The position numbers and the translations under genes are program-made. Source: Mesostigma viride (Eukaryota > Streptophyta > Mesostigmatophyceae > Mesostigmatales > Mesostigmataceae). From it: a DNA stretch of 64,000 nt. Within the stretch, counting starts at the first letter, position 1. Each line of letters starts with the position of its first letter. Below are positions 35,674-60,252 of the stretch, piece after piece. The DNA lies in contig RPFO01000189.1 of assembly GCA_009746045.1 (NCBI GenBank), positions 150,800 through 214,799 of the forward strand, in the 5' to 3' direction. The notes under the pieces were generated by a model that saw only the letters and a program-made list of their open reading frames with translations, was not told the origin of the DNA and made no database searches.

Positions 35674-35676
35674 TAG

Positions 35677-35705
35677 GGGTGGTTTTACCGGATTAGGATA
35701 CATTT
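35677..35705 (+). repeat. Element A left terminal inverted repeat
   Basis: Identical to the reverse complement of 44781-44809. It is followed at once by an inverted subterminal AAATGTATCC. Confidence 0.9.
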
Positions 35706-36718
35706 GCACGGCTTCAAATGTATCCTAAATGCACCATTGGCAAACATGGTTTCTGGACATGGTCGATATCATTAATATGTTTGGCAAGCATAATATGATC
35801 ATGCTTGCCAAAGATGTTGTCTCTTTTCATATTTCACACATATATTATCGGCCTCGGCGTGCCATGCTTCCACGTTTGTTGTCTCTTTTCATATATTGTG
35901 AATATGATCAATAAAATTCCAAACATGACCATGTTGGAGACTTCAAGTGGAGCATCATGATTACTGTTTTCACTATTACGTAACCCATGGTTCATGTTAA
36001 CATGGCATAATGAGCAATCCTATTGACCCCATGACTAATGGTGAAGTTAATAAAGTTACATCGTGGCACGTCACTATAGCATCAAGTTGCATCATTGTGC
36101 ATAAAGTAGTTTAGCACTGAGTTGGCATGCCAACACCAGGTACACTAAATAAATTAAAACCAGAATTGATAAACAACCCAGTATCCAAATACAGTATCCA
36201 TATATATGCAGGTCGTACTACAGGTACAGCCACGGCTGCCACGCGGCTTCTGCAGCGATCACGCTCTTTCTCCTAGACAATTGCTCTACTGGTCCCTACA
36301 GGTCGGTCGACTTGGACCATGATGCGTCAAGAACAGTTAATTGACCGACTTAAACAAGATGTTTGTCTACATGCAGCTGTCTGCACCTAACTAACGCGAA
36401 ACCGCGTGCTACCAAATATAGGGGCAAATGCATGAGTAACACATGTCAACGCACAACCGGTGGAAATCACGCGATACCAACCGCGGCAACAGTGGTGTGA
36501 ACATAGCGGGCACTGACATGCAAAAAAGCACCAGCAGCGGCATCAGTAGCAAATTGTAGTAGCGGAACAATAGCCACTACATCAATGCAACAACACATCA
36601 GCCCAGCAACACAGCAGCAGCATGACCGTAGCACAGCAGCAGCACAACTGTAGCACATCAACACGGCCGCATAGCAGGAGCACAAGTCAGCGCAGCAGCA
36701 ACTTAGTATGCCGATTCC

Positions 36719-36760
36719 TGAATTTCCTATCAGTGGACTATAGTCCATTGATAGGAAATT
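36719..36760. repeat. 42-bp near-perfect palindrome in element A
   Basis: GAATTTCCTATCA...TGATAGGAAATTC is centred on GGACTATAGTCC with a single mismatched position per arm. It lies in a CAG/CAACA-rich stretch (36500-36960) between the left TIR and the DUF gene's 3' end. No gene is seen in 35706-36978. Confidence 0.7.
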
Positions 36761-36978
36761 CACTAATAGGCAGTACTAGCTCAGCAGCACGGCAGCAATG
36801 CAGCAGTGCATCAACACAGCAGCACGACAGCAATACATCAGCGGCACGGCAGCAATGCAGCAACACATCAGCACAATAGCACAGCAGCAGTACGGCAGCA
36901 ATGCAGCAGCAATAGCATGGCAGCACAGCAGCAGCAGCAGCACATGAGCAGCTCAATGACAACAACGCTGCTTGCGCT

Positions 36979-38509
36979 TCAGCAGTCGTCGTCGTCGTCA
37001 TCGTCATCGGCAAGGATGAGCGCTCGCTTCCGACGCCGGGAGGCGCCTGCGTTGTTGTTCTCCGCCACAACGTCGCTGGGTGGAACCATCTCGCGCAATC
37101 GAGCCTCGGCCAGGGTGATATCCGGCGCTTGCAACGCAGGGACGACCACACCGGGGCACCCGCAGATCTGTGCCTCCAGCTCGTGGAGAGGCACGCAAGA
37201 AACCGCGTCCTCCTCCCAACGGGCACCCCAGTACATGGCTACCATGTCGTTTTGCGTGTCGACAACAGCGACACGACCATGGTACCTGCCGTCCCGGCTT
37301 TCGGTGCGACCGTCCGCGGATGTCACACGCTCCGACGCCCAATGACACACGACTTGCCCTACGAGGTTGCGGCTGCCACTCTTGACCTGCAGCGTTACGC
37401 CTTCCCAGCATGCCTTCGCCATGCCGACGATGCCCTTCGAGCATTCAGCATCTTGCCACTTCACGACCGGGTGTTCCGCGTCATAGGGCACCTCCTTCAG
37501 CGCCTTTAGGCACTCCTTGGTGAGCTTTTCGTTCGCACCCAAGGAGACTCCATGGGGCGGCTGACCTCGCTTGCCCACCACTTGTGTCAAGACGAGGTCT
37601 GAGGCGGTGATGATCACCGTGTGCGCCGCAGTGGTTGGCGGATGGGGCCATTGCGCAATGTCTGTATTCCACGGGTGCCACGTGTCATGCAAATGCTTAG
37701 CGCGGTATACAAAGAGCTCAATAGAAGGTTGGCCGCCATCCTCCTTCGCAACCACCTCCTTGATGATGCCAACGAGGACTGGAGTCCACGTGAGCTTCGA
37801 GTTGCAGAGAATACCAGCTGAAGGGTGCCAGTATAGAACAGCGGAGCCTTTCTCAACGCCTTGCATGCGCTTCAAGTAAGCGACCTTGGCTGCCATGGCC
37901 CTGTCTTCTGCCGCCCATTCCTGCTGTGTGTGGCCATCATGACGAACTCGGTCTACCAGCGGGGTGACGCGCACCGCCTCTGCGTCGACCAACGCCATGA
38001 AGTGCTCTTCTTGCGTCGGTGGTGGTTCAGGCGCTGCATCGTGCTCACGCAGGGCGGAGATGTCCGCGCGAGATGGCCACGGCAAAGGGCGCCACTCCTC
38101 AGGCACCTCCTCAGGGGCATGTGGGACTTGACTTGCGAAAAAAGGCCTTGTTTGGCTTGATGGTGTCGGGCGGAAAGTACCACTGCCAGATGCCATGGGG
38201 CAACTTCTCGACCCTTGTTTTGATCGACTCCAGCTCCTTCCCCAGAAACTCCATGTTCAATGGTGCGAAGGCTGGGGTGTCCTGCAACATCGGAATGCGG
38301 TCTGGATCCACAAGTCGGACGCCAAACAGCGGCCGCCCCTCCGCATCAAACCTGTATGGCTGTGTCATCGCCTTCCCGCACCGTGGCGCGCCTTCCTGTC
38401 GAGTCCCCGCGGGCTGCCACGGCGTCTTTTGGGACTCCGTGGTCCGGTAGGACAACCAGGTCTCTGTGTTGCCCTGTACCTGGAAGAAGACGGCGTGGTG
38501 CACCTTCAT
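36979..38509 (-). CDS. Unknown-domain protein of element A (frameshifted)
   Basis: Two overlapping minus-strand frames make one protein. The first runs from ATG 38509 (MKVHHAVFFQVQ) to about 38140. The second, to 36979, is read from about 38138. They join if the T6 run (plus-strand A6 at 38138-38143) is read as T5, so there is one frameshift or a homopolymer error. The second frame holds a conserved region from about residue 118 to 365, shared with the protein at 52872-56393: VLYWHP, VYRA, WHPWN, HTV.I.AS, LVGQ.VC, (Y)HG.VA.VDT, VAMYWGA.WEE, ICGCPGV.VP. The pattern of short beta-like blocks with many aromatics recalls Tudor- or BAH-type readers, but this is only a guess. It ends with RRRKR and a run of eight Asp. 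It is divergent from the PHD-like gene of the same element. Confidence 0.65.
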
Positions 38510-38519
38510 TGAGCGACCG

Positions 38520-39530
38520 CGTTTTTCAGGCACCGGCTGTGCCGCTCCGCCGCTCCGCCGCTCCGCCGCCCGCCGGCTGCGCCGCCGGCCCGCCGCGCGC
38601 CGGCTGCCCCGCCCCGTAGCCCGTCGACAGGCTGCCCCGCCCCGCCGCATGCCAGCTGCGCCGGCCCGCCGCCCACGCGCGCCGGCAGCGCCGTTGGCCC
38701 CCCGCGCGCCGACGGCCCTGCCCCGCCGCCCGTTGACAGCCCCGCCCCGCCGCATGCCAGCTGCGCCGGCCCGCCGCCCATGCGCGCCGGCAGCGCCGCT
38801 GGCCCCCGCGCGCCGACGGCCCTGCCCCGCCGCCCGTCGACTGCCCCGCCCCGCCGCCCGTCGACAGCCCTGCCCCGCCGCATGCAGGCTGCGCCGCCGC
38901 TGCCACCTCGCTGCGCGCTGGCTGCGCCACCTCGCCGCCCGCCGACGGCGCCGCCCCGCCGCGCACCGGCTGCCCCGCCCCGCCGCCTGTCGACTGCCCC
39001 GCCCCGCCGCATGCCAGCTGCGCCGGCCCGCCGCCCACGCGCGCCGGCAGCGCCGCTGGCCCCCCGCGCGCTGACGGCCCTGCCCCGCCGCCCGTCGACT
39101 GCCCCGCCCCGCCGCCCGTCGACAGCCCCGACCCACCGCATGCCAGGTGCGCCGGCCCGCCGCCCGCGCGCGCCGGCAGCGCCGCTGGCCCCCCGCGCGC
39201 CGACGGCCCTGCCCCGCCGCCCGTCAACAGCCCTGCCCCGACGCCCGTCGACAGCCCCGCCCCGCCGCATGCCAGCTGCGCCGGCCCGCTGCCCACGCGC
39301 GCCGGCAGCGCCGCTGGCCCTGCCCCGCCGCCCGTCGACTGCCCCGCCCCGCCGCCCGTCGACAGCCCTGCCCCGCCGCATGCCAGGTGCGCCGGCCCGC
39401 CGCCCGCGCGCACCGGCAGCGCCGCTGGCCCCCCGCGCCGACGGCCCTGCCCCGCCGCCCGTCGACAGCCCCGCCCCGCCGCATGCCAGCTGCGCCGGCC
39501 GGCCGCCCATGCGCGCCATGCGCTTCGCAG
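38520..39530. repeat. GC-rich minisatellite upstream of element A unknown gene
   Basis: Repeats of about 120-130 bp are built from CCCCGCCGCCCGTCGAC and CGCATGCCAGCTGCGCCGGC-type blocks. Nearly all six frames are open because of composition, so the Arg/Ala/Gly-rich translations are not taken as protein. The array may still be an in-frame N-terminal extension of the gene at 38509, whose frame stays open through it. Confidence 0.8.
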
Positions 39531-39696
39531 GTCCATTGGGATCATGAGGCCTGCGCAGAATCTCACCTCGGAGGCCCGTGCTACTTCTAGTAAGATGCTT
39601 GCATTTTCAATGCGTCACCTATATGCAGGCATAGAGGGTGGTACATGGCGCTAGACTCATCAAGGGATAGGAGCCATGCCCTCAGCAATTACTCAC

Positions 39697-40472
39697 CTCC
39701 TGGCCCTTGCTGTTGCGGTCTCGGATGAAGATGATGGTCTACACGCCGCCGCATGCAAACAAGGAATGAGAGACAAAGCCGTGCGAGGCCAATATGGGCA
39801 CAGTGAGAGAAACAAGTCGACGCGAACCTACATCACGAGTGTCAGCGAAGGGGACCCATGGGAGAAGTCTCCCTCCCATGGTATCATTCACGGACACACG
39901 CAGCGGCCATGGGAACAGCCAAAACAGCAGGTTCACACACGCAAGGGCAACGACCTGCAGTGCCTGACCAGCATGTCGGTCAGTTGTGATTGGCAAGGCA
40001 GAGCCACACACACCAGGTACACGCTGCATGGGCAGGGAAGACGCTCTTACATGAGAAAAAGCGAGGAAACGTGCGCGAGAAGGATATTAAGAGCGATCCG
40101 CGCTAGAAGGATGCTACAATAGCATCATATATTCAAGAATTAGCAAAGAAAGATGTAGAAAAGAGACAAAAGAAAGAAATACGAGAGAAAGCAAAGACAG
40201 GGAGCTGCCAAACAGGGCAGACAAAAGGTTACGAGCGGCAAGAGTTGTGAACGCTGCACTTGATTGCTTTCTCTGACTTGTCAACTGCGAAGAGTGACTG
40301 ACTTACCTCTCTGGAAATGGTATGCTCAGCATCCCATGGTAATGAAATGGTGAGCTATGCTGTCAGACATGCCTATATAACATAGCTACCCTAGGGTCCT
40401 AATACAAAACTAGAAATCAAACCATACCGTGAGTTTCCCGGCTCGCACGGCCTCCTCCCTTTGTGCCGACGC
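39697..40472 (-). pseudogene. Captured CFAP299-like gene fragment, two exons and intron
   Basis: Exon 40428-40472 (acceptor TTTGCAG, donor GTATGG) encodes a 15-residue piece ending REEAVRAGKLT. Exon 39697-39738 (acceptor GTGTAG, donor GTGAGT) encodes TIIFIRDRNSKGQE. Both are phase 0 and join to GKLTTIIFIRDRNSKGQE. From memory this matches the conserved core of CFAP299 (C4orf22), a cilia- and flagella-associated protein. The expected next segment is absent and no upstream exons were found. The fragment lies inside element A, so it is most likely host sequence captured with its intron. Confidence 0.6.
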
Positions 40473-40984
40473 CTGCAAACACAACGGGCCGTGGAGGAGG
40501 GTGGAAAGGTGGGCAAGTGTGGAGGAGTTTGGGGGGGACCGGGTTGAGCAGCGGTGGGGGAAAGATGTGCCGGTCATGATGTTGTCAACTACAGCTGTTG
40601 TATCGTGATTCACCTTCAATAAGTCTACTGTTCTACATCCGGTGGTGGATGGACACAAGCAATAAAGGCCCCGCCCACAACTCAGATTTCTTTAGAAAAT
40701 CTACTGATCTACATTCGATGGCGCCTTCACAGAAGCAGGAAACTCCGCCCACCGGTCAAATGTGACGCCCAACAAAGCCCCAACTTATTTCTTCAAGAAG
40801 TATACTGTTTTACATCCGGTAGTGCTTGGACAGAAGCAATATGTAAAGCCCGCCCACAAATCGGATTTCTTTACGAAAAACCTGTTTTACATTCGATGGG
40901 GTCTTGACAGATTCAAGCAGCAATACTCGTTTCTACCTGCGTGCGACTGCAGCGGCCGAGTGCTGCAACTTGCCTTCACGTCCC

Positions 40985-42215
40985 AGTCTTCACGTGTCAG
41001 TCCTGGTCTTCACGTCTTCACGTCTTCACGTCTTCACGTCTTCACGTCTTCACGTCTTCACGTCTTCACGACTTCACCTGAACTTGCGGCGTATCGTATC
41101 TTTGATACCTTGCATGCACGTCTTCACGTCTTCACGTCTTCACCGCGTCTTCACCTGTCTTCACCACGTCTTCACGTCTTCGCGTCTTCACGTCTTCACG
41201 GCTTCACCTGAACACCTGAACTTCACCTGAACTTGCCGTATCGTGTCTTCACGTCTTCACGTCTTCACGTCTTCACGTCTTCACCGCGTCTTCACCTGTC
41301 TTCACCACGTCTTCACGGCTTCACGGCTTCACGTCTTCACGGCTTCACCTGAACACCTGAACTTCACCTGAACTTGCCGTATCGTGTCTTCACGTCTTCA
41401 CGTCTTCACGTCTTCACGTCTTCACGTCTTCACCGCGTCTTCACCTGTCTTCACCACGTCTTCACGTCTTCGCGTCTTCACGTCTTCACGGCTTCACCTG
41501 AACACCTGAACTTCACCTGAACTTGCCGTATCGTGTCTTCACGTCTTCACGTCTTCACGTCTTCACGTCTTCACCGCGTCTTCACCTGTCTTCACCACGT
41601 CTTCACGGCTTCACGGCTTCACGTCTTCACGGCTTCACCTGAACACCTGAACTTCACCTGAACTTGCCGTATCGTGTCTTCACGTCTTCACGTCTTCACG
41701 TCTTCACGTCTTCACGTCTTCACCGCGTCTTCACCTGTCTTCACCACGTCTTCACGGCTTCACGGCTTCACGTCTTCACGGCTTCACCTGAACACCTGAA
41801 CTTCACCTGAACTTGCCGTATCGTGTCTTCACGTCTTCACGTCTTCACGTCTTCACGTCTTCACGTCTTCACCGCGTCTTCACCTGTCTTCACCACGTCT
41901 TCACGGCCTCACGGCTTCACGTCTTCACGGCTTCACCTGAACACCTGAACTTCACCTGAACTTGCCGTATCGTGTCTTCACGTCTTCACGTCTTCACGTC
42001 TTCACGTCTTCACGTCTTCACCGCGTCTTCACCTGTCTTCACCACGTCTTCACGGCTTCACGGCTTCACGTCTTCACGGCTTCACCTGAACACCTGAACT
42101 TCACCTGAACTTGCCGTATCGTGTCTTCACGTCTTCACGTCTTCACGTCTTCACGTCTTCACGTCTTCACCGCGTCTTCACCTGTCTTCACCACGTCTTC
42201 ACGGCTTCACCTGAA
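40985..42215 (+). repeat. CGTCTTCAC nonamer array in 141-150-bp higher-order repeats
   Basis: The 9-mer CGTCTTCAC and variants (CGGCTTCAC, CTGTCTTCAC) form seven or eight longer units, each marked by CTTGCCGTATCGTG (about 41230, 41371, 41521, 41662, 41810, 41958, 42108) and CACCTGAACACCTGAAC. It lies between the divergent genes of element A. Short similar repeats around 40680-40910 (TTTACATCCGG/TTTACATTCGATGG) precede it. Confidence 0.9.
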
Positions 42216-42739
42216 CACCTGAACTTTGCGTATCGTATCTTTCATACATTGCATCATTTGCATGCCTTGGAGCTGCACGTCTTCAAGCAGTGTCACCCAG
42301 TTCCCGCTTGATTCAAATGCACTTCGCGCTTGAATTCGTGACTTCGCCCCGCTCAAGGTGGAAAGAATGATGGGCACTAGCCACGGGAACTATGCCCGAT
42401 GCTGATAGCCGAAGCGATGACATGGACGAATTGATTGATTTGTGTTATGCCGGGGACGATTGTAGAAAATGGGTGCTAGGAAAGAAATCTGGTGCCATGA
42501 AAGTAGATTTTTTGGCCGGTGCAAACCACCAATGCGCCGGCCGATGTGGCAAGGTCCTGCACGGCAGCCAGAGCGCACCCAGCCAGAGCGTACCCAGCCG
42601 CTGCCGCCGCCGACCCCCGTACTGGTGGGCGTGGAACAGACGATGAGAGAGATGCAACGAGCTATGGAGAACCAAAGCAAGAAGGTTGAAGAGCTTGGTT
42701 TGCAGCTGCGTCAAGAGGTGCAGAAACAAGTGGTCCAGC

Positions 42740-42741
<2 letters not shown>

Positions 42742-42778
<37 letters not shown>

Positions 42779-42815
42779 TGCAGCAGCAACTGCAGCAGCA
42801 ACTGCAGCAACAACT

Positions 42816-42887
<72 letters not shown>

Positions 42888-42888
42888 C
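42742..42888 (+). repeat. CAG trinucleotide array
   Basis: About 45 CAG units with scattered CAA and CTG, encoding Gln in the frame of the preceding helix. The coding frame after the array differs from that before it, so copy-number change here probably caused a frame shift. Confidence 0.85.
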
Positions 42889-43095
42889 TTCAGTTCCCGC
42901 AGGCAGCGTCGGCAATGTCGCAGTTTCCACAGGCATTGTCGGCACTGCAGCAGTTTTCGCAGGGACCGTCGGCAGCAGAGCAGTTCCCGCAGGGATCATC
43001 GGTGGTGCAGCAGTTCTTTGTGAGTCATTCGTGTAGTGTTGAGTGGGTGGGGTGGGGTGTGTGTGGGGGGGGGGTGTAGGGGGGTTTGACTGTGT

Positions 43096-44000
43096 GACTG
43101 CGTGGCTGCTTGGCTGGAAAGGAGGGTGCGTGGCTGTGTGGCTGCGTGGCTGCGCTGCTGCGTGGCTGCGTGGCTGCGTGGCTGCGTGGCTGCGTGGCTG
43201 CGCTGCTGCGTGGCTGCGTGGCTGCGTGGCTGTGTGGCTGCGTGGCTGCGTGGCTGCGTGGCTGCGCTGCTGCGTGGCTGCGTGGCTGGAAAGGAGGGTG
43301 CGTGGCTGTGTGGCTGCGTGGCTGCGCTGCTGCGTGGCTGCGTGGCTGCTTGGCTGGAAAGGAGGGTGCGTGGCTGTGTGGCTGCGTGGCTGCGCTGCTG
43401 CGTGGCTGCGTGGCTGCGTGGCTGCGTGGCTGCGTGGCTGCGTGGCTGCGTGGCTGCGTGGCTGCGTGGCTGCGTGGCTGGAAAGGAGGGTGCGTGGCTG
43501 TGTGGCTGCGTGGCTGCGCTGCTGCGTGGCTGCGTGGCTGCGTGGCTGCGCTGCTGCGTGGCTGCGTGGCTGCGTGGCTGTGTGGCTGCGTGGCTGCGCT
43601 GCTGCGTGGCTGCGTGGCTGCGTGGCTGCGTGGCTGCTTGGCTGGAAAGGAGGGTGCGTGGCTGTGTGGCTGCGTGGCTGCGCTGCTGCGTGGCTGCGTG
43701 GCTGCGTGGCTGGAAAGGAGGGTGCGTGGCTGTGTGGCTGCGTGGCTGCGCTGCTGCGTGGCTGCGTGGCTGCGTGGCTGCGTGGCTGCTTGGCTGGAAA
43801 GGAGGGTGCGTGGCTGTGTGGCTGCGTGTAGCTGCGCTGCTGCGTGGCTGCGTGGCTGCGTGGCTGCGTGGCTGCGTGGCTGCGTGGCTGCGTGGCTGGA
43901 AAGGAGGGTGCGTGGCTGTGTGGCTGCGTGGCTGCGCTGCTGCGTGGCTGCGTGGCTGCGTGGCTGCGTGGCTGGCTGGGGGGGGGGGGGTGCCGGGTGC
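43096..44000 (+). repeat. GTGGCTGC octamer array with higher-order units
   Basis: Octamers GTGGCTGC with GCTGCTGC variants are grouped by recurring GGCTGGAAAGGAGGGTGCGT blocks (about nine). It fills the predicted intron of the element A PHD-like gene. Three frames stay open through it, giving Trp/Leu/Arg/Gly/Cys repeats that are treated as artefacts. Confidence 0.9.
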
Positions 44001-44780
44001 GTGGATGCGTGGATGTGTGGCTGGGTGGGTGCGTCACTGCGTGGCTGGCTGGCTCTGTGGCTGCGTGGGCGGCTGGATGGCCGGGTCAGCGTGGCTTCGT
44101 GTTCAATGGGATGCTAATATGTTGTTGCCTTTGGATGCCACAGTTCATGGATTCTTTTGTTCACATGCAGGTGCTGCCGTCTTCCCCATCGACGTCGTCA
44201 AGACCGATGTCGCCAAGAAGGATGATGCAATCACTCTCGGCCATGTTTAACTCATGTGGGCCTTCATGGCCATACGGGAAATATTATTGAATCAGTTCTT
44301 TGACACTGAGTTGGCACTACGCAACACCTTTGATGCACATGAGTGCAGGGCGCATGTGTTGAAACCATGCAACCATGGCGATCCCTCAAAAAGTTTGGTT
44401 ATGTAATAAGTGACACAATTATTCCGGACGTATGATGGCCCAACGTCCTGTAAGGTTGAGTTGTCTTGGAGGAGGAGCGTGATGACCGCGGAAGCCGCGT
44501 GGGTGTCTGTAGTGCTATATCTTGAAGATGTACGGTCTTGGAAGAGTTATGGTCTTGGAATCATATAATAATGAACTTGGAATAAAGTTGCGGGCAGCCT
44601 TCAATTGGCATATGTTGTCTCATTGATGTTGTCTCATTGCGTTAATGGGTCAATTGTCTTAGTTTATATAATGTATATCTTGGGAAACTCATTGCTTCAA
44701 TAAAATGCATGCTAGGCGCAATCAACCCCCACAAACACATCTGAAAACTGCACAGTGCATCAAATGTATCCTAGACAAAA

Positions 44781-44809
44781 AAATGTATCCTAATCCGGTA
44801 AAACCACCC
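44781..44809 (-). repeat. Element A right terminal inverted repeat
   Basis: Partner of the left TIR. A second AAATGTATCC lies just inside at about 44763-44773. Confidence 0.9.
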
Positions 44810-44812
44810 TAG

Positions 44813-45053
44813 GAGATGTCTTTGGAATACCGATCGAGATTCACCAGTTTGGAACGGATGACTGGGTGGTTGGCGAGTTCCTCCATTGTTCGCTGGGGAG
44901 GTAGTTGGCTGAGTTGGCGGTTCAGAGCCCACCGGTACCGCCACGTTTTAATAATCTTCGTAGATTTTCGAGTGCAGCGCCGGACCACGCGTTCTTCCAT
45001 TGGTTCATAATCCTCCACGCTTGCTTGCAAAGTAAAGACGGGTTCAGACTCTT
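44813..45053 (-). pseudogene. Gene H, first fragment (upstream of element A)
   Basis: Minus-strand frame ending ...VIRSKLVNLDRYSKDIS at the border of element A. Removing A and one copy of the CTA duplicate gives GAC ATC TCC TAC TAC AAT, which is in frame with the fragment at 35673. The frame is open only back to about 45051. A second frame at 44922-45122 is also open, so the 5' part may be frameshifted or begin at an exon edge near 45050. Confidence 0.5.
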
Positions 45054-47387: not shown

Positions 47388-47390
47388 GCA

Positions 47391-47419
47391 GGGTGGTTTG
47401 TTTGGGTTAGGACAGATTT
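47391..47419 (+). repeat. Element B left terminal inverted repeat
   Basis: Identical to the reverse complement of 57150-57178. A subterminal TTTAGGACAG copy follows at about 47427. Confidence 0.9.
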
Positions 47420-47881
47420 GTCCATTTAGGACAGTCCTGCAGCCAAAGCGTGAAAACATTAGCTTATTGGTGCCTTACGCATGCTTGCTTCTGCATGATA
47501 ATTTTTTGAATGGGATTCAACTGTTTTTATGTGTATATAACTGCCGTCTTGTTTCACGTGTATGTATGTGAATACACAAATGTTCTCAGCATTGAGTTAT
47601 GCACAATGCACATCAATTAATTTATTAAAAGTAATTAGTAATCATGTAGACTGCGTCACGTGAGCATAGATTAAGTGAGACAACTATTCCTTGACGCAAG
47701 GCGGTCCAACGTCGTGTAAGTACAAGCCGTTACTAGTTGTATGAGAAATAAATCGTTGTCCTGATTAGCCAAGATGTTGCACTACCACAATACCCATGAT
47801 GTTGCTCTTAATAATAATGCCATGTCCTATAATGCATGAATGGGCGGTGATCTAAGCATGTCATAAAACATCCTATTCCAG

Positions 47882-48313
47882 CGAGCAGCGGGCAGCGGGC
47901 AGCGCGCAGCGGGCAGCGGGCAGCGGGCAGCGCGCAGCGGGCAGCGGGCAGCGGGCAGCGGGCAGCGGGCAGCGGGCAGCGGGCAGCGGGCAGCGCGCAG
48001 CGGGCAGCGCGCAGCGGGCAGCGGGCAGCGGGCAGCGGGCAGCGGGCAGCGGGCAGCGGGCAGCGGGCAGCGGGCAGCGGGCAGCGGGCAGCGGGCTGCG
48101 GGCAGCGGGCAGCGGGCAGCGGGCAGCGGGCAGCGGGCAGCGGGCAGCGGGCTGCGGGCAGCGGGCAGCGGGCAGCGGGCTGCGCGCAGCGGGCAGCGGG
48201 CAGCGGGCAGCGGGCAGCGGGCAGCGGGCAGCGGGCAGCGGGCAGCGGGCAGCGGGCAGCGGGCTGCGGGCAGCGGGCAGCGGGCAGCGGGCAGCGGGCA
48301 GCGGGCAGCGGGG
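47882..48313 (+). repeat. GGGCAGC heptamer array
   Basis: About 60 copies of GGGCAGC with rare GCGCAGC and GGGCTGC variants. It lies between the left TIR of B and the 3' end of the PHD-like gene. Open frames across it (Leu-Pro-Ala-Ala-Arg-Cys-Pro) are artefacts. 47420-47881 holds no recognisable feature. Confidence 0.95.
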
Positions 48314-48406
48314 CAAAGTACTGCCAAAAAAAGGGACCCTGCTTTGGGCTGGGCGGAGCCAGCGGGTTACTCTAGTAATAATTAGTCACAAGGTCCTGTT
48401 GGGACG

Positions 48407-49740
48407 CTAACGCGGTGGCGCAAATTCGTATGGCACATACATGCGTGGCGCCTCGCGTGGCGCAGATTCACATGGCACATACATGCGCGGCGCCTCGCGT
48501 GGCGCAGATTCACATGGCACATACATGCGCGGCGCCTCGCGTGGCGCAGATTCACATGGCACATACATGCGCGGCGCCTCGCGTGGCGCAGATTCGCATG
48601 GCACATACATGCGCGGCGCCTCGCGTGGCGCAGATTCGCATGGCACATACATGCGCGGCGCCTCGCGTGGCGCAGATTCGTACGGCACATACATGCGCGG
48701 TGCCTCGCGTGGCGCAGATTCGCATGGCACATACATGTGCGGCGCCTCGCGTGGCGCAGATTCACATGGCACATACATGCGCGGCGCCTCGCGTGGCGCA
48801 GATTCGCATGGCACATACATGCGCGGTGCCTCGCGTGGCGCAGATTCGCATGGCACATACATGCGCGGCGCCTCGCGTGGCGCAGATTCGCATGGCACAT
48901 ACATGCGCGGCGCAGATTCGCATGGCACATACATGCGCGGCGCCTCGCGTGGCGCAGATTCACATGGCACATACATGCGCGGCGCCTCGCGTGGCGCAGA
49001 TTCGCGTGGCACATACATGCGCGGCGCCTCGCGTGGCGCAGATTCGTATGGCACATACATGCGCGGCGCCTCGCGTGGCGCAGATTCGCATGGCACATAC
49101 ATGTGCGGCGCCTCGCGTGGCGCAGATTCACATGGCACATACATGCGCGGCGCCTCGCGTGGCGCAGATTCGCATGGCACATACATGCGCGGTGCCTCGC
49201 GTGGCGCAGATTCGCATGGCACATACATGCGCGGCGCCTCGCGTGGCGCAGATTCGCATGGCACATACATGCGCGGCGCAGATTCGCATGGCACATACAT
49301 GCGCGGCGCCTCGCGTGGCGCAGATTCGCATGGCACATACATGCGCGGTGCCTCGCGTGGCGCAGATTCGCATGGCACATACATGCGCGGCGCCTCGCGT
49401 GGCGCAGATTCGCATGGCACATACATGCGCGGCGCAGATTCGCATGGCACATACATGCGCGGCGCCTCGCGTGGCGCAGATTCACATGGCACATACATGC
49501 GCGGCGCCTCGCGTGGCGCAGATTCGTATGGCACATACATGCGCGGCGCCTCGCGTGGCGCATAGTCTGGTGCCGGCACCGCTGCCGCTGTTGCCGCAGG
49601 GGGCGCACTGGCTGCCGGCACCGCTGCCGCCGCTGCCGTGGTGGGCACACCGGCTGCCGCCACCGCTGCTTTGGTGGGTGCGGCGGCTGCCGCCCCCGCT
49701 GCCACTGCCGCCGCCGCCTCTTTATGCTTCTGCAGCAGTC

Positions 49741-49771
<31 letters not shown>

Positions 49772-51563
49772 CTGCTGCAGCTTTGTCATCATGGCATTAA
49801 ATTGCTGCTGTTGCTGTTGCTGTTGCTGCTTCATCATGCTGTCGAATTGCTGCAGCAGCGCTGCCATCCCCTTCGAATTTTCAGCCGGGGCGTCAGGCTG
49901 CTTGGCAGGCGCTGAGCCGTTTTCTGAGCGGCGCTGGCGCTTGACTGGTTTCGTCGCCGCAGCTTCTTTGGCAGGCTGCTTGCTCACGATGCGCTTGCCG
50001 CGCCCATGCACGTTGGTGACCTCCTGCAACGCGGGCAGCCCTGCAATTTGTGGGTCGGGCATGTCAGAGTCTTGTGTTATGCAAGCTGGCAGACGTGGCA
50101 GCGTAGCCGGGTATTTCGCCAAGAGGGCCGATCCTGGAAACTGCTCAGCGGACAAGATGAATGGCGGTGGGCCAGCACTCAATATCTGGGGCAGCAGGTC
50201 CGCCTTGTTCTTGATGGCCCAACTCATCACCGCCTGCATGTCCTCATTCCAAGCGGATGATGGGAGAACGCCCTTGTGCTCCAACCCCAGGGTAGTGGGA
50301 AACGTGGTGGCATTCTTGTCGTTGACAACGATGACCACTGCGTCGAAAAATCCGATCGCGGACGGTCGCCTGGTTGGGCTGCCTTTGAGTCGGTCGAGCA
50401 AGTTTTTAAATTTCTTGTAGCGGCTCTGCCTCACAAAATGCGCGCAGATTGACGAGCTCGCGATTGCCCCCACTACCACCCCCACATGAGGCCATTCGGG
50501 GATTGCAAGGGCCACGATATCATCCTCGCTGTCGCTGGTGGAAGCACCGCCTGGTGTTTTGTGCATCCCCGGCCCTGCCGGTGGAGGAGAAAAAGCTAGT
50601 TCTTTTCTTGTGTCGCCGACATCGAAATGACGCGACGCCGAAGCCCGAAAGGTACCAGCTGCAGGGCCCGGGGTGTTCTCCTTCTTGGAGGCGTCGCGCT
50701 CAACCACGGGAATGTGCGCGCCGCCAACAGCATGCTTGCCAACCGTGGGGCCCATCGCAGCACGCAAAGCTGCATCACCTTGGCCGCTCTTGTCCTGATT
50801 GCCATCACCCATCGCACCCTTGCCTGCGCCGTTCTTTTCCTCCTCGCCATCACCCATCGCACCATAGCCAGCGCCGTTCTTTTCCTCCTCGCCATCACCC
50901 ATCGCACCATTGCCGCCTGCGCCGTTCTTTTCCTCCTCGCCATCACCCATCGCACCATTGCCGCCTGCGCCGTTCTTTTCCTCCTCGCCATCACCCATCG
51001 CACCATTGCCGCCTGCGCCGCTCTCCTCCTCGACGCCACCACCAAGCGCAACACCGCCTGGGCCGTTCTTCTCCTCGACGCCACCACCCGTTGCATCATC
51101 ATCGACATGACCCTCGTCATGCAATATTATCACCAGAACCCAGCTCACCATCGTCGACCCTTCCATCCACGACTCTGGCTAGCTTAACGAGTTTCCGTGA
51201 TGGAACCTTAACGACCTTGCCCTTGCCGCCCAGCGAATAAAGAGCACCAAGGCCGGCCAGTTGGGCGTCGACCACCTTTTCCTTAAAATCGACAGGCGAG
51301 GCCTCCTTACTGATGGCGGTAGGCGGCCAAGGGCCGCCACACTCCTGGCAGGTCCACTCTGTGCCATCCTCACCCGCCGATGCATCCCTAAACATCCCGG
51401 TGCACAGCCCATGCAAGTGCTTGCCACACTGGCCTGAGCATGGATGGTTGGCTCCGCCCAGCAGCTCATTTTTGTCGACACTATCAAATCCGGTTGCATG
51501 ATCAGCGCCGGGCAATTTCTTGCATCTATCGCCTGCGTAGCAGGGGCCGCTTGACCCCTGCAT
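48407..51563 (-). CDS. PHD-like zinc-finger, Gln-rich repeat protein of element B
   Basis: The first frame (51563-51117) starts MQGSSGPCYAGDRC and holds a PHD-like finger: C-x5-C, then C-x3-C-x4-H...H-x2-C (HPCSGQCGKHLHGLC), then WTCQEC. The second frame (51166-48407) continues after a one-base frame change at 51117-51166; a 36-base GT-AG intron there does not restore frame. It has Gly/Glu/Asn repeats (GGNGAMGDGEEEKN), an acidic stretch, a globular segment at about 50600-50050 (LGLEHKGVLPSSAWNEDMQ), a basic KRQRR motif, polyglutamine, an Ala/Pro region and about 28 copies of a 14-residue repeat (PREAPRMYVPCESA). PHD fingers usually read histone tails, so chromatin binding is plausible but unproven. 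Its partner is the divergent gene at 52872. Confidence 0.65.
48420..49562 (-). repeat. 42-bp coding minisatellite, 14-residue repeat
   Basis: About 28 in-frame units of 42 bp, each encoding PREAPRMYVPCESA or a close variant; three are shortened to 30 bp (CESAPRMYVP). The period is always a codon multiple, which suggests the frame has been kept under selection or amplified recently. Confidence 0.9.
49735..49860 (-). repeat. CAG/CAA tracts encoding polyglutamine
   Basis: Two Gln runs separated by FNAMMTKL, preceded by LLQQFDSMMK. This resembles the helix-plus-polyGln block of the element A gene at 42660-42890. Confidence 0.85.
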
Positions 51564-51774
51564 TCTTCGCTTGCTACAGATTTAACCACCGGAAAATAGA
51601 CAAAGATTGCACGCAACCTTCCAATAATGCCGGCTGCGATTTAACCTTCGTTTGCTGGGCGCTGCACGCTGCAATGTATCGAGTCAATTTGCGCGGGATC
51701 TGGAACTTTGAATAGGTATATGTTTAGGCAAGAGGCTGCGGCGTCATTTGGCTGCAGCTGGGTAACTACTTGCG

Positions 51775-52460
51775 TCTTGCGGCCAAGATACGCAGCCTGC
51801 CTCGAGAGGGCTGCGTATCTTTGCCGCAGCCTGCCTCACCAGCTAAAAACCTTGCGGCCAAGATACGCAGCCTGCCTCCTCGAGGATATCCTCGAGGAGG
51901 CAGGCTGCGTATCTTGGCCGCAAGGTTTTTAGCTGGTCATTTGGCTGCCAGGGTAACTACTTGCGTCTTGCGGCCAAGATACGCAGCCTGCCTCGAGAGT
52001 CGAGGCAGGCTGCGTATCTTGGCCGCAAGACGCAAGTAGTTACTTCCCCAGCTGCCGAGGCAGGCTGCGTATCTTTGCCGCAGCCTGCCTCACCAGCTAA
52101 AAACCTTGCGGCCAAGATACGCAGCCTGCCTCCTCGAGGATATCCTCGAGGAGGCAGGCTGCGTATCTTGGCCGCAAGACGCAAGTAGTTACTTCCCCAG
52201 CTGCCGAGGCAGGCTGCGTATCTTTGCCGCAGCCTGCCTCACCAGCTAAAAACCTTGCGGCCAAGATACGCAGCCTGCCTCCTCGAGGATATCCTCGAGG
52301 AGGCAGGCTGCGTATCTTGGCCGCAAGGTTTTTAGCTGGTGAGGCAGGCTGCGGCAAAGATACGCAGCCCTCTCGAGGCAGGCTGCGTATCTTGGCCGCA
52401 AGACGCAAGTAATTACTTCCCCAGCTGCCGAGGCAGGCTGCGTACATTTTGGCGGCAAGT
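51775..52460. repeat. Palindrome cluster between the divergent genes of element B
   Basis: A module GGCAGGCTGCGTATCTTGGC-CGCAAG recurs about a dozen times in both orientations. At least three copies meet head to head around CCTCGAGGATATCCTCGAGG, giving perfect palindromes with arms of about 37 bp (about 51852-51925, 52107-52180, 52255-52328). It lies in the shared promoter region. It could be a regulatory or transposase-binding array, or a cruciform-prone hotspot. Confidence 0.85.
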
Positions 52461-52871
52461 TCCCCAGCTGTTCGCTGCTTAGGCAAGTTGTTGCAACGAC
52501 TTCGCCACGTGACTGCCAACAGGGGCGCCTGCGTTCAAGTCTTCAGTGCGTGCCCTGGCGGCACATCATTATTACGTAAATAGCCGTGAAGCTTTCGGTA
52601 CCTTAGCAGTTTATAGTTGGATTTATGGCAGACAAGGCTGACTGCAGGATATTATTTTGTGGTTTAACAAGTGACGCCGAAATGAATAGGCACGGAGCCG
52701 AAAAATAGCCGACGTAGTTGATTTGGAGACGAGTTGTTAGCATTGATGACAAAAATGGGATTAGGTTTACACAGGACAGTAATAGGCGCTGAGCTGCTTA
52801 CTCTTATGAGGTCCGGCATCCATTCAGCGCCGGGGGAGTCCTGCTTTTGGTTTAGGTTGAAACTTTTATAA

Positions 52872-55800
52872 ATGTTAGAGATAAAGGCTAGGATAGCAAA
52901 ATGGCCGAACATGTCGAGTGGGACGGAGGTATTGTCTCCGACTCGGACGACGATGACGATTTTGCGTACCATGACGGAGGGCTCGGTCGTGCTATACTGG
53001 CATCCCACGTGCCAAATGCTCTGCAACACCGACGTCCCCTGGCCCCCCATGTTGGTGGGGGTGGTGAAGAAGGTAGAGCAGCCTGCCGATGAGGGGGGCA
53101 GCGAGCCTCACCTGGTCCTCTCTGTATACCGTGCCAGGAGCATGACCGATGCTTGGCATCAGTGGGACCCGAACAGCGCCACATGGCCTCTGCCGAGCAA
53201 GTCGTCCGCAAACTCCCACACAGTCACCATCGCAGCATCCGAGGTCATCCTCACCTATTGGATCCCGGCGAAGAAGCCCACCTCGCGCCACTTGGTGTCT
53301 TTGGATGCCAAGAAAAAGCTGTCTGCTGCGTGCCTGACCGCGCTCAAGCAGGTGCCAAGGGACGCAGGTCACCCGACGGTTGACTGGCAACTAGCTTCAA
53401 CTCCCAAGGGTGTGGTGCACATGGCTGAACGTTGCTGGCAAACGATCTTGGAGCAGGTGATGGGTGGCAAGCTCTGCCTGGTAGGACAACTTGTGTGCAG
53501 CTATGAGATTGTGCACGAGTCCGTCGGCGGCCGCACAGTGAACCGTCCTAGAAGATTCCATGGTCAAGTGGCAGCTGTGGACACGGAACATGGCAAGGTG
53601 GCTATGTTTTGGGGTGCTCAATGGGAAGAGCTGGCGGTGACGTGTGTGGACCTCCCAGAATTGGGGAAGAAAATCTGTGGATGCCCCGGTGTGTCGGTCC
53701 CTCCTCTGCAAGCGTCTGAGATCGCCGTTGCCGAGTCCCGCTTACGTGCGGAGGTGCACGCTGCGCTGACCAGCGCAACTGCGCGCAGCTCGCCTGAGGC
53801 AGCGCGCGGCACGGCCGACACAACTAAGCGCAAGCCGCCTGCGCCTGCAGCAACCAGCACAGCCACGCGCAACCCACGTGCGGTGGCGACCAACTTGCGC
53901 GCAGCAGTGCGCGCCCTGAATGATAAGGCTGCAAGTGACTTGCGTGCGCCCGCGCGTGCGGCCACCGGCGCGGCTGCACCTGCCAACTCGCCTGCGCCTG
54001 CACTCACGACCACCGGCGCGGCTGCACCTAGCAAGTCGCCTACGCCCGCGCGCGCGGCAGCCGGCGTGGCTGCACCTGCCAACTCGCCTGCGCCTGCACT
54101 CACGACCACCGGCGCGGCTGCACCTAGCAAGTCGCCTACGCCCGCGCCTGCGGCCCCCGGCGCGGCTGCACCTGCCAACTCGCCTGCGCCCGCGCCTGCG
54201 GCCACCGGCGTGGCTGCACCTGCCAACTCGCCTACGCCCGCGCCTGCGGCCACCGGCGCGGCTGCACCTGCCAACTCGCCTGCGCCTGCGCGCGCGGCAG
54301 CACCTGCCAACTCGCCTGCGCCTGCGCGCGCGGCCACCGGTGTGGCTGCACCTGCCAACTCGCTTGCGCCTGCGCGCGCGGCAGCACCTGCCAACTCGCC
54401 TGCGCCTGCGCGCGCGGCCACCTGCGCGGCTGCACCTGCCAACTCGCTTGCGCCTGCGCGCGCGGCAGCACCTGCCAACTCGCCTGCGCCTGCGCGCGCG
54501 GCCACCTGCGCGGCTGCACCTGCCAACTCGCCTACGCCCGCGCCTGCGGCCACCGGCGCGGCTGCACCTGCCAACTCGCTTGCGCCTGCGCGCGCGGCAG
54601 CACCTGCCAACTGGCCTGCGCCTGCGCGCGCGGCAGCACCTGCCAACTCGCTTGCGCCTGCGCGCGCGGCAGCACCTGCCGACTCGCCTGCGCCTGCGCG
54701 CGCGGCCACCGGCGTGGCTGCACCTGCCAACTCGCCTACGCCCGCGCCTGCGGCCACCGGCGTGGCTGCACCTGCCAACTCGCCTACGCCCGCGCCTGTG
54801 GCCACCGGCGCGGCTGCACCTGCCAACTCGCTTGCGCCTGCGCGCGCGGCAGCACCTGCCAACTCGCCTGCGCCTGCGCGCGCGGCCACTGGCGTGGCTG
54901 CACCTGCCAACTTGCCTACGCCCGCGCCTGCGGCCACCGGCGCGGCTGCACCTGCCAACTCGCTTGCGCCTGCGCGCGCGGCATCACCTGCCAACTCGCC
55001 TGCGCCTGCGCGCGCGGCCACCGGCGTGGCTGCACCTGCCAACTCGCCTACGCCCGCGCCTGCGGCCACCGGCGCGGCTGCACCTGCCAACTCGCTTGCG
55101 CCTGCGCGCGCGGCAGCACCTGCCAACTCGCCTGCGCCTGCGCGCGCGGCAGCACCTGCCAACTCGCTTGCGCCTGCGCGCGCGGCAGCACCTGCCGACT
55201 CGCCTGCGCCTGCGCGCGCGGCCACCGGCGTGGCTGCACCTGCCAACTCGCCTACGCCCGCGCCTGCGGCCACCGGCGTGGCTGCACCTGCCAACTCGCC
55301 TACGCCCGCGCCTGTGGCCACCGGCGCGGCTGCACCTGCCAACTCGCTTGCGCCTGCGCGCGCGGCAGCACCTGCCAACTCGCCTGCGCCTGCGCGCGCG
55401 GCCACTGGCGTGGCTGCACCTGCCAACTTGCCTACGCCCGCGCCTGCGGCCACCGGCGCGGCTGCACCTGCCAACTCGCTTGCGCCTGCGCGCGCGGCAT
55501 CACCTGCCAACTCGCCTGCGCCTGCGCGCGCGGCCACCGGCGTGGCTGCACCTGCCAACTCGCCTACGCCCGCGCCTGCGGCCACCGGCGCGGCTGCACC
55601 TGCCAACTCGCTTGCGCCTGCGCGCGCGGCAGCACCTGCCAACTCGCCTGCGCCTGCGCGCGCGGCCACCTGCGCGGCTGCACCTGCCAACTCGCTTGCG
55701 CCTGCGCGCGCGGCAGCACCTGCCAACTCGCCTGCGCCTGCGCGCGCGGCCACCGGCGTGGCTGCACCTGCCAACTCGCCTACGCCCGCGCCTGCGGCCA

Positions 55801-56393
55801 CCGGCGCGGCTGCACCTGCCAACTTGCTTGCGCCTGCGCGCGCGGCAGCACCTGCCAACTCGCCTGCGCCTGCGCGCGCGGCCACCGGCGTGGCTGCACC
55901 TGCCAACTCGCCTACGCCCGCGCCTGCGGCCACCGGCGCGGCTGCACCTGCCAACTCGCTTGCGCCTGCGCGCGCGGCAGCACCTGCCAACTCGCCTGCG
56001 CCTGCGCGCGCGGCCACCTGCGCGGCTGCACCTGCCAACTCGCTTGCGCCTGCGCGCGCGGCAGCACCTGCCAACTCGCCTGCGCCTGCGCGCGCGGCCA
56101 CCGGCGTGGCTGCACCTGCCAACTCGCCTACGCCCGCGCCTGCGGCCACCGGCGCGGCTGCACCTGCCAACTTGCTTGCGCCTGCGCGCGCGGCAGCACC
56201 TGCCAACTCGCCTGCGCCTGCGCGCGCGGCCACCTGCGCGGCTGCACCTCCCGACTCGCCTGCGCCTGCGCGCGCGGCAGCCGGCGCGGCTGAAGAAGAT
56301 ATGTTGTCTGATTCCCGTCGTCGCCGGGCACACCGTTACATAGTGTGTCCGGACAGTGATAGCGATGGAGCCCCGGAGGCTATGGAAACATGA
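52872..56393 (+). CDS. Unknown-domain, Ala/Pro-repeat protein of element B
   Basis: A 1173-codon frame. Residues about 36-300 (from EGSVVLYWHP) align closely with the element A protein at 36979-38196: VYRAR, WHQWD, HTVTIAAS, LVGQLVC, HGQVAAVDT, VAMFWGAQWEE, KICGCPGVSVPPLQA. The rest is a long low-complexity region of Ala/Pro/Ser/Thr repeats (53960-56290) with larger duplications. It ends in Arg-rich then acidic residues (SRRRRAHR, DSDSDG), like the RRRKR-Asp8 tail of its relative. The true start may be the ATG at 52901 (MAEHVEWDGGIVSDSDDDDD) with a frame change near 52965, since that acidic segment is out of frame with the domain. The N-terminal MKVHHAV part of the element A protein is not found here. 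Function unknown. Confidence 0.7.
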   Translation: MLEIKARIAKWPNMSSGTEVLSPTRTTMTILRTMTEGSVVLYWHPTCQMLCNTDVPWPPMLVGVVKKVEQPADEGGSEPHLVLSVYRARSMTDAWHQWDPNSATWPLPSKSSANSHTVTIAASEVILTYWIPAKKPTSRHLVSLDAKKKLSAACLTALKQVPRDAGHPTVDWQLASTPKGVVHMAERCWQTILEQVMGGKLCLVGQLVCSYEIVHESVGGRTVNRPRRFHGQVAAVDTEHGKVAMFWGAQWEELAVTCVDLPELGKKICGCPGVSVPPLQASEIAVAESRLRAEVHAALTSATARSSPEAARGTADTTKRKPPAPAATSTATRNPRAVATNLRAAVRALNDKAASDLRAPARAATGAAAPANSPAPALTTTGAAAPSKSPTPARAAAGVAAPANSPAPALTTTGAAAPSKSPTPAPAAPGAAAPANSPAPAPAATGVAAPANSPTPAPAATGAAAPANSPAPARAAAPANSPAPARAATGVAAPANSLAPARAAAPANSPAPARAATCAAAPANSLAPARAAAPANSPAPARAATCAAAPANSPTPAPAATGAAAPANSLAPARAAAPANWPAPARAAAPANSLAPARAAAPADSPAPARAATGVAAPANSPTPAPAATGVAAPANSPTPAPVATGAAAPANSLAPARAAAPANSPAPARAATGVAAPANLPTPAPAATGAAAPANSLAPARAASPANSPAPARAATGVAAPANSPTPAPAATGAAAPANSLAPARAAAPANSPAPARAAAPANSLAPARAAAPADSPAPARAATGVAAPANSPTPAPAATGVAAPANSPTPAPVATGAAAPANSLAPARAAAPANSPAPARAATGVAAPANLPTPAPAATGAAAPANSLAPARAASPANSPAPARAATGVAAPANSPTPAPAATGAAAPANSLAPARAAAPANSPAPARAATCAAAPANSLAPARAAAPANSPAPARAATGVAAPANSPTPAPAATGAAAPANLLAPARAAAPANSPAPARAATGVAAPANSPTPAPAATGAAAPANSLAPARAAAPANSPAPARAATCAAAPANSLAPARAAAPANSPAPARAATGVAAPANSPTPAPAATGAAAPANLLAPARAAAPANSPAPARAATCAAAPPDSPAPARAAAGAAEEDMLSDSRRRRAHRYIVCPDSDSDGAPEAMET
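53960..56290 (+). repeat. Ala/Pro-coding minisatellite with 516-bp and 348-bp duplications
   Basis: Units of about 36-54 bp built on GCACCTGCCAACTCGCCTGC and GCGCGCGCGGCAGC. Blocks at 54532-54723 and 55048-55239 are identical at an offset of 516 bases; blocks at 55564 and 55912 repeat at an offset of 348. Open frames on the other strand and in other frames are shadows. Confidence 0.9.
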
Positions 56394-57149
56394 AGTCGCG
56401 GTTGCTACCATTGTTGCTACCAATGATTGCTATGTGTGCACCATGGCTGCCAACATTGCTGCTTCCTTTGCTGCTTCTCCGCTGATATGCCGTGCTTTTG
56501 ATTCACTCTCTGCCATGCATGCCAGTATAGTGCTGCCACCATTGTCATGATGTAACTTGTCAACACCAATGCATGTTCTGATTCTGATGTGATTGATTAT
56601 ATTCCTGGCCTGCATGAGTCTGTTGAGGTTGTTTGTCGCTGCTGCGGCTGCTATGACCATTACTAGTGTGCTCATGTGAGTTTTTTGCCATGTCCATTTG
56701 CGCAGTCATGGAGCATTTCAAGGTTTGCCCGAGATTTACGAGACCCAAGTGTCAGTCATTTTCCGCGAAGCCGCGATATAATCCCTGACAGAAACTGGCA
56801 AAAACCACATGGAACATATGCAGAATCCTCCTTGATAATGTCTCATGTAGTAGATACATTCCAGCCTTTGCAATTACAATCACGTCACTAAATTTTTAAG
56901 TATGCAAAATTACAAGCTGTGAGTGCAATTGTCTCTACTCATCATAAGATACCAGCTTGACAATCATGAATGCCCATTTGGTTACAGCATATAAGGCAAC
57001 TTGTCATTATATAACACAATTATTGACTTGAAACTCCTCGACCAATGCAAAAATTTGCCCAAACCTTCTATCAAACTATTTTGGGAAGTCCACAGCATCC
57101 AAAAAACACATTTTTCAAATTTTCATTTAGGACAGACCTGCAGCCTCCC
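56394..57149. other. 3' flank of unknown-domain gene to right TIR of element B
   Basis: AT-richer and without repeats or coding signal. It presumably holds the 3' UTR and polyadenylation site of the gene ending at 56393. Confidence 0.4.
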
Positions 57150-57178
57150 AAATCTGTCCTAACCCAAACAAACCACCC
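57150..57178 (-). repeat. Element B right terminal inverted repeat
   Basis: Partner of the left TIR. A subterminal TTTAGGACAG lies just inside at about 57125. Confidence 0.9.
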
Positions 57179-57651
57179 GCATTGGCGTGATCCTGATTCG
57201 GCATATCTCTGCGATTCCAGCGGCACCGGAACGAGTTCATTCCGACAAGTATCAAGAAAGTTATGGCGTTCCGACTTCCCGGTCGCGCGCGAGCGCGAGC
57301 CGGCTGTTCTTCTAAGTCGGACGTGAATATTTGCCGACGACATATGGGGTCGACAGTAATTCCTGGGCTGACAGGAATTAGGTGCTGAACCTACGACGGT
57401 ATTGGGTTAATACGTCGTACGCAGGAAATAGGAACCTTAACCTGTGGTCTGGTGGTACCGCAGGCCTAGTCCTGGACTTCTAGGTGCAGATGCAATAATC
57501 ACTGTGGTGACTGTACTCTGTGGTCACTGTGCCTGTATGGCAGACCTACTGTATAGGAACTGGGCGCTGTACAGGTAGTGAATACTGTACCGGGGGTGTT
57601 ATTACTGAGCAGGCCTCTTAGGCTGCTCAGGACTAGCAAGCACAGTGCACA

Positions 57652-58803: not shown

Positions 58804-58882
<79 letters not shown>

Positions 58883-58929
58883 AGGAGAACCAGGACGCGC
58901 CTGGGGCCAACCGTGGTGGTCTTGCCTGA
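57956..58929 (+). pseudogene. G-element ORF1 protein (G1 copy), one frameshift
   Basis: Starts MVQEEQRQQDF as in G0. The N-terminal frame runs to 58561 but leaves the G0 reading at about 58478 (after TAEAITG); the original frame resumes by about 58530 and continues through RVTRWEEFAPLGYDSD to 58929. The C-terminus is an acidic Ser-Asp tract (58803-58880) ending KENQDAPG. Helical and charged in the first 120 residues, then Ala/Arg-rich. No enzyme motif was seen; probably structural. Confidence 0.6.
58803..58882 (+). repeat. GACAGC hexamer expansion, Ser-Asp tract
   Basis: About 13 copies of GACAGC code for alternating Asp-Ser. G0 and the unit fragments have only two or three, so the tract expanded after these copies separated. 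Confidence 0.85.
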
Positions 58930-59031
58930 GTGGTAACACTTGGCACTTTCCTTTCTTGTTCAGTAGCTTATATTGCTTTAATTGCTGCTTGGCCACTTGG
59001 CTGGCTGTAGCAGATCTGAACAGAGGCCATC

Positions 59032-60219: not shown

Positions 60220-60252
60220 CTTGAGCCTGCACACATCCCTGAACCCTGGAGG

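Follow-up and report, generated by a model that had tools for sequence, protein, structure and literature searches.

A predicted DUF7869 transposase in longer relatives of two internally deleted transposons of Mesostigma viride

Introduction

The window analyzed here, a 64,000-nt stretch of the Mesostigma viride genome (GenBank assembly GCA_009746045.1, contig RPFO01000189.1, positions 150,800 to 214,799 of the forward strand), contains two related elements, A and B, which are bounded by terminal inverted repeats (TIRs) and target-site duplications (TSDs) and raise the question of what moves them. A sequence-only reading of the window had described in both a head-to-head gene pair, one gene encoding a PHD-like finger and the other a conserved "unknown domain" of about 250 residues, and no known transposase. 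It proposed either that the unknown-domain protein is a divergent transposase or that A and B belong to a larger family as coding yet non-autonomous elements. Searches of the genome (440 Mb in 2,243 contigs, labeled C1, C557, C643, C1646, etc.; copies read are labeled L001-L045) support the second proposal, as a DUF7869 core (Pfam PF25273), missing from A and B, is present in longer copies bounded by the same TIRs. It is highly probable that internal deletion gave rise to A and B within a TIR transposon family whose longer copies encode a predicted DDD-type DUF7869 transposase, which would likely move A and B in trans.

Results

The two elements and their ends have the following limits.

35677..44809: element A, an internally deleted A-type transposon of 9,133 bp, defined by its TIRs and TSD; its TIR also bounds copies with a DUF7869 core
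35677..35705, plus strand: left TIR of A, GGGTGGTTTTACCGGATTAGGATACATTT; TSD TAG at 35674-35676
44781..44809, minus strand: right TIR of A; TSD TAG at 44810-44812
47391..57178: element B, an internally deleted B-type transposon of 9,788 bp, defined by its TIRs, its TSD and a deletion relative to the long copy L029
47391..47419, plus strand: left TIR of B, GGGTGGTTTGTTTGGGTTAGGACAGATTT; TSD GCA at 47388-47390
57150..57178, minus strand: right TIR of B; TSD GCA at 57179-57181

The 29-bp TIRs are perfect within A and within B and identical between them at 22 of 29 positions; these figures, the TSDs and the coordinates stand as first described.

Two A-type copies, C557:300486-311773 (11,288 bp) and C643:4461-16894 (12,434 bp), have the TIRs of A with TSDs and encode, on the side of the first-noted domain gene, a full 401-aa core within an exon matching DUF7869 (E = 1.7e-15 for C557 and 5.7e-17 for C643). 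A long B copy, C1646:2230446-2240892 (L029 plus L045; 10,447 bp, read except for 300 bp), has the TIRs of B with one mismatch in one of them, the TSD ATG/ATG and a single 1,367-aa frame holding both the core and the first-noted domain. The layout of this long B copy recurs in subfamily C (L030, read without reaching its ends), where a 1,268-aa frame contains core and C-terminal domain, while in family D (L031) a 753-aa frame joins DUF7869 to a part that matches residues 1-204 of the A gene at 29% identity (E = 8e-18). Since core and first-noted domain share one frame in B-type and subfamily C copies, the "unknown domain" is, by sequence comparison, the C-terminal part of the predicted transposase. 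The cores of all five families (A, B, C, D and E) exceed the curated PF25273 cut-off of 26 bits (62.4 for C643, 57.5 for C557, 55.6 for L029, 56.2 for L030, 53.9 for L031 and 49.5 for L033, a family E copy).

Six-frame Pfam scans of A and B gave no transposase at E <= 1, no DUF7869 match and few, chance-like matches, the best being HV_Gp350_C-term within a repeat (E = 0.0019). The original statement that there is no known transposase thus holds for A and B alone, but not for the longer TIR-bounded copies with their DUF7869 core, and internal deletion accounts for the difference. What remains of the gene in the window is as follows.

36979..38196, minus strand: predicted-transposase remnant ORF of A, with the C-terminal domain and without the DUF7869 core
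38190..38520, minus strand: upstream coding remnant of the same A gene in another frame, limits approximate; protein P0002 joins this remnant to the domain
39518..40613: stretch of A unmatched in the long copy C557, which has the DUF7869 core there
52901..52978, plus strand: predicted-transposase N-terminal remnant of B, upstream of the deletion junction; start identical in L029
52968..52986, plus strand: deletion junction of B, with 2,423 bp missing relative to L029, GGAG common to both sides of the break and the frame changed
52971..56393, plus strand: predicted-transposase C-terminal remnant ORF of B, with Ala/Pro-rich repeats; in L029 a single 1,367-aa frame spans this domain and the core

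The B junction is identical in all five B copies read (B of the window and L017-L020), so that a single deletion most likely occurred and spread afterwards. In A, about 1.1 kb of filler (39518-40613) stands in place of the core. The upstream remnant and domain region of the A gene are read through in one frame in C643, and two EukProt proteins of M. viride (Mesvir1) match the A gene at 99% and 90% identity over 60% and 40% of its length. Over 261 residues the domains of A and B share 50% identity, and the A remnant ORF is 48-49% identical to the C-terminal parts of the long B and subfamily C frames.

Among 21 A-type copies read, the core was complete in two (both picked by size), a fragment in one (L015) and absent from 18. 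Genome-wide there are 104 core matches, of which 71 are full-length at 99-100% identity without stops, seven are at 58% (the long form of B), seven are at 55% (subfamily C) and the others are partial or divergent. With families D and E included, at least 150 PF25273 matches in the genome lie above the cut-off. No PF25273 match was found in 14 control genomes, and no relative of the core in viral contigs. A lookup of the core against 5.8 billion proteins returned none at E <= 1e-5 among 5,280 candidates, a search by exact short words only that gives no evidence of absence elsewhere.

Family E (L033, L034) extends this association to a second type of element. Its DUF7869 core is 28% identical to that of A, and its ends, CCCTACCAGCCATTTAGAATGTACTCC, differ from those of A and B; with one leading flank base and at most one mismatch, this end pattern is matched 38 + 44 times across the genome, as against 0 + 0 times for the control. 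Pairing by eye gave 12 elements of about 8.9-10.8 kb with TIRs of at least 27 bp, 11 of which enclose a DUF7869 match among the matches listed, and all six pairs read at both ends have TSDs of exactly 3 bp (TAT, TGA, CAG, CTT, CAC and GGA). With two deeply split DUF7869 lineages thus inside elements with different TIRs and equal TSD length, the DUF7869 gene is a natural candidate for the transposase.

One element bounded by family E ends (C1391:1591386-1595597, 4.2 kb) is under half the usual size and is perhaps a deletion derivative. A variant of the end pattern, ACCCTACCAGCCATTAAGAATGTACTCC (ATTAAG), has many matches with no close opposite pair seen, and may mark the ends of another or older family. 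The 753-aa frame of family D (L031, L032) is repeated many times with near-identical sequence, and L031 also contains a PHD-like gene.

The alignment of the five families shows four invariant aspartates (D158, D253, D292 and D294) at three places: D-[KA]-[LI], Q-x-D-G-G and G-H-T-H-x-D-x-D-Q. Their spacing, D-x94-D-x38/40-D, would fit a DDD/E enzyme. These residues argue against the view that DUF7869 is cargo or a nuclease helper and that the actual transposase is encoded by some other gene of the long copies that profiles miss. That view can point to Pfam, which gives DUF7869 no function, to the lack of a PDB relative and to the PHD protein, which has a central domain without assignment. It is nevertheless very unlikely: DUF7869 is the sole recognized gene that the long forms of all five families have in common (with TIRs and TSDs defined for A, B and E), and a six-frame Pfam scan of C557 gave only DUF7869 and a weak PHD match, apart from weak chance-like matches.

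Alternatively, A and B could be self-sufficient, with the C-terminal domain protein an unusual transposase and the core of the longer copies an extra. With 147 out of 593 candidates scored, the A-type domain is indeed present at least 147 times, 99-100% identical and always free of stops, and among neighboring A/B end pairs made by eye from the matches listed, none is the size of a miniature inverted-repeat transposable element. However, the domain follows the core, whole or in part, in one frame in B, C and D, the B junction puts the original start out of frame, the lost part contains the candidate catalytic residues, and in family E the TIRs and TSDs flank a DUF7869 gene whose C-terminal part is only weakly similar (E = 0.021). 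Taken together, these observations make self-sufficiency extremely improbable. The idea of a divergent transposase survives in part, in that the domain belongs to the predicted transposase, while the candidate catalytic residues are elsewhere in that protein. Too few synonymous differences separate the copies of the A domain to tell whether it is under selection.

The domain has no Pfam match above chance and no PDB match, and AlphaFold2 models of it reached a pLDDT of 36 alone and 40 with a four-row alignment. An earlier idea of a Tudor or BAH fold was dropped, the models being too poor for a fold search.

A genome search with the common A/B TIR pattern, as the sequence-only reading had proposed, yielded further copies: at up to two mismatches the pattern has 628 matches (308 forward and 320 reverse; about 100 places listed), as against 0 + 0 for the reversed control. 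A previous pattern with wrong spacing (402 + 411 matches versus 190 + 203 in its control) was discarded. TSDs were read in 26 copies, namely A and B of the window, four larger A-type copies and another 20, which span 8.2-9.9 kb and were drawn from those listed end pairs that are less than 10 kb apart (A-type, L001-L016; B-type, L017-L020). An exact 3-bp duplication is present in 25 of the 26 and a 4-bp duplication in none, the sole exception being L002, which has no TSD. The 25 TSDs comprise 17 different triplets, and 14 of the 25 begin with T as read on the plus strand, which leaves a mild T-start target preference possible.

Large size as a sign of extra genes was rejected for C1:559359 and C113:154616, where nested insertions, retroelement-like by eye, account for it. 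Nested retroelement-like insertions of about 5.9 and 4.4 kb, judged by eye, lie within the A-type copies L021-L022 and L023-L024.

The partner gene of the pair is represented in the window by the following features.

42392..42643, plus strand: truncated PHD-gene remnant of A, the first half of the finger followed by a frameshift; 84 aa (compare the PHD gene of C557)
42740..42886, plus strand: poly-Gln coding stretch of the PHD gene in A, out of frame with the finger remnant
51120..51581, minus strand: exon or frame of B encoding a PHD-like finger, in head-to-head orientation to the transposase remnant; PHD match at E = 0.005, below the cut-off; proteins P0003-P0006
48407..51166, minus strand: rest of the PHD gene of B, with central domain, poly-Gln and repeats
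51762..52416: near-perfect inverted-repeat array between the two divergent B genes, 99-100% complementary, arms of 50-176 nt

The Cys-rich finger, which we call PHD-like from its cysteine/histidine pattern, is 47% identical between A and B over a 45-column alignment, and the common gene pair stands insofar as both elements contain domain and finger. In A, however, only half the finger is left, cut by an internal deletion and a frameshift to an 84-aa remnant, and B keeps the whole finger in an open frame that stops after 154 aa, as that frame does in at least 22 B-type copies including the one in the window. Splicing might cross the end of this frame; four EukProt proteins of M. viride (P0003-P0006) match the PHD gene of B. 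In C557 the gene is open across finger, central domain and poly-Gln. The six long B loci with a PHD match among those listed have a frame of 846-922 aa in four cases, 343 aa in one, and 84 aa plus a stop in one. Profile support for the finger is E = 0.005 in B, 5.4e-5 in C, 0.22 in C557 and 0.1 in D.

A head-to-head PHD-like gene lies within 6.5 kb of the core at at least 90 of 103 core loci (78 of 89 in subfamily A, 6 of 7 in B and 6 of 7 in C, among the 150 PHD matches listed; one of the 104 core matches, an 84-bp piece, was dropped). This recurrence across three subfamilies suggests that the PHD gene is hardly mere cargo of A and B. Sequence related to the inverted-repeat array of B (51762-52416) is also present in L029.

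An empty site of B lies in a second copy of the flanking repeat:

27744..27910, minus strand: empty site of B; joined flanks 167/167 identical, with a single GCA

Seventeen of the 167 matching bases fall left of the junction. When the flanks of A are joined with one TSD, the open frame that A interrupts continues without a frameshift.

The frame split by A occupies 35142-35684 and 44812-45051 (minus strand) of the window. A retroelement-like repeat has two copies, at 26276-27121 (minus strand) and 57956-61410 (plus strand), and B lies in or beside this repeat; the latter copy extends into an ORF with a zinc knuckle and into a weak match to an integrase core (E = 0.075). A pair of the same ORFs, resembling a direct duplication, is found at 32323-33015 and 33772-34464, 1,449 bp apart.

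Discussion

Our data suggest a mechanism in which the DUF7869 protein would bind the TIRs and cut at their ends by means of an active site of RNase H type, formed by its three aspartate positions. Joining of these ends to a target cut with a 3-bp stagger would then give the 3-bp TSD. The C-terminal domain and the PHD partner may serve targeting or regulation, perhaps by reading chromatin. A and B, which have kept their ends, would be moved in trans by the long copies and could have spread because ends, and not the enzyme, are needed in cis.

Several observations weigh against this reading. The copies were not sampled at random: size decided the choice of C557 and C643 and presence of a core that of L029 and L030, while L001-L020 came from the listed end pairs that are less than 10 kb apart. 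In the long A-type copies, core and C-terminal domain are in different frames with a minisatellite between them, and splicing is assumed. The core profile matched no transposase in the PDB and gave one chance-like match (E = 0.48), so that the RNase H fold we infer derives from the conserved residues only. The ends of family D were not found, being hidden by tandem repeats at the edges (of about 173 bp at one edge), and no PHD finger was present in the family E ORFs scanned. All PHD matches are below the Pfam cut-off, and 13 of the 103 core loci have no PHD partner among the matches listed. Eleven of these are A-type, comprising ten partial or broken cores and one (C911) near a contig start; C1690:685941 likewise has no PHD match within 6.5 kb among those listed. 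Finally, long copies that have a standard transposase but no gene pair, named by the sequence-only reading as evidence that the pair is incidental, were not seen among the long A-type and C copies read, whereas the full B copy on C1646 (300 bp unread) has no PHD match; the PHD gene may thus be dispensable in cis.

The elements are TIR DNA transposons with a real chance of forming a new superfamily, and membership in Academ or another of the groups in Repbase (superfamilies listed in PMC4455052, consulted in part) is possible. A broader proposal, which we hold to be about evenly balanced, is that DUF7869 marks an unrecognized superfamily of eukaryotic DNA transposons, with a DDD transposase bearing a chromatin-binding-like C-terminal domain, a separate PHD-finger protein in an independently arisen RAG1/RAG2-like layout, and deletion derivatives that keep the C-terminal domain. 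A literature search for DUF7869 or PF25273 found no paper, and one on new superfamilies, Academ and PHD-bearing transposons found nothing fitting by title and abstract. The main text of the Mesostigma genome paper, as far as consulted, names long terminal repeat elements as the largest repeat class and does not contain the term "DNA transposon" (PMC6947507).

This proposal would give a testable function to a Pfam family that has had none, now that it is placed in TIR-bounded elements with defined ends, TSDs and gene layout, and other genomes with DUF7869 genes can be searched for TIRs and 3-bp TSDs. The elements are numerous in this early-branching streptophyte alga and, judging from the near-identity of many copies, recent, so that an active system may exist.

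CACTA/EnSpm and PIF/Harbinger elements are large, often have two genes and in many cases generate 3-bp TSDs, and PIF/Harbinger elements combine a DDE_Tnp_4 core with a Myb/SANT partner and a TWA target. Such likenesses could mean that our elements belong to a described superfamily (e.g., Academ, PIF/Harbinger or CACTA) under another name, which we regard as unlikely, if credible. Against PIF/Harbinger, no transposase or Myb/SANT Pfam match was found in A, B or C557, and TSDs as varied as those read here are not limited to TWA. Against CACTA/EnSpm, for which the portion of PMC12730594 consulted gives CAC termini and a 3-bp TSD, the termini are GGG..CCC in A and B and CCC..GGG in E, rather than CAC..GTG, and A, B and C557 have no Transposase_21-type Pfam match. 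TSDs of 3-4 bp in AcademX and 3 bp in Zator (PMC10045372, consulted in part) fit those seen here. Yet the six frames of C557 contain no Pfam match to other transposases, an XPG nuclease or a helicase at E <= 0.5; for Zator the TSD length agrees, and this comparison was by Pfam profile, not with the Academ, Zator and Novosib transposase sequences themselves. Kyakuja-Dileera-Zisupton (KDZ) elements, described in the same portion of PMC12730594 as large eukaryotic elements with DNA-modification-related cargo (TET/JBP), have TSDs of 7-8 bp as against 3 bp here, and no KDZ Pfam match was found in A, B or C557.

The closest parallel in layout is with the RAG system. RAG1/RAG2-type (ProtoRAG) transposons contain a transposase gene and a second gene, vertebrate RAG2 has a PHD finger, and RAG-type TSDs are 5 bp long. 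Our elements differ in the 3-bp TSD, the head-to-head arrangement of their genes and the lack of a RAG1/Transib Pfam match. They resemble the RAG type in pairing a predicted transposase gene with a gene for a PHD-finger-like protein, and this pairing offers a second case, besides RAG, in which to study how chromatin readers steer DNA transposition.

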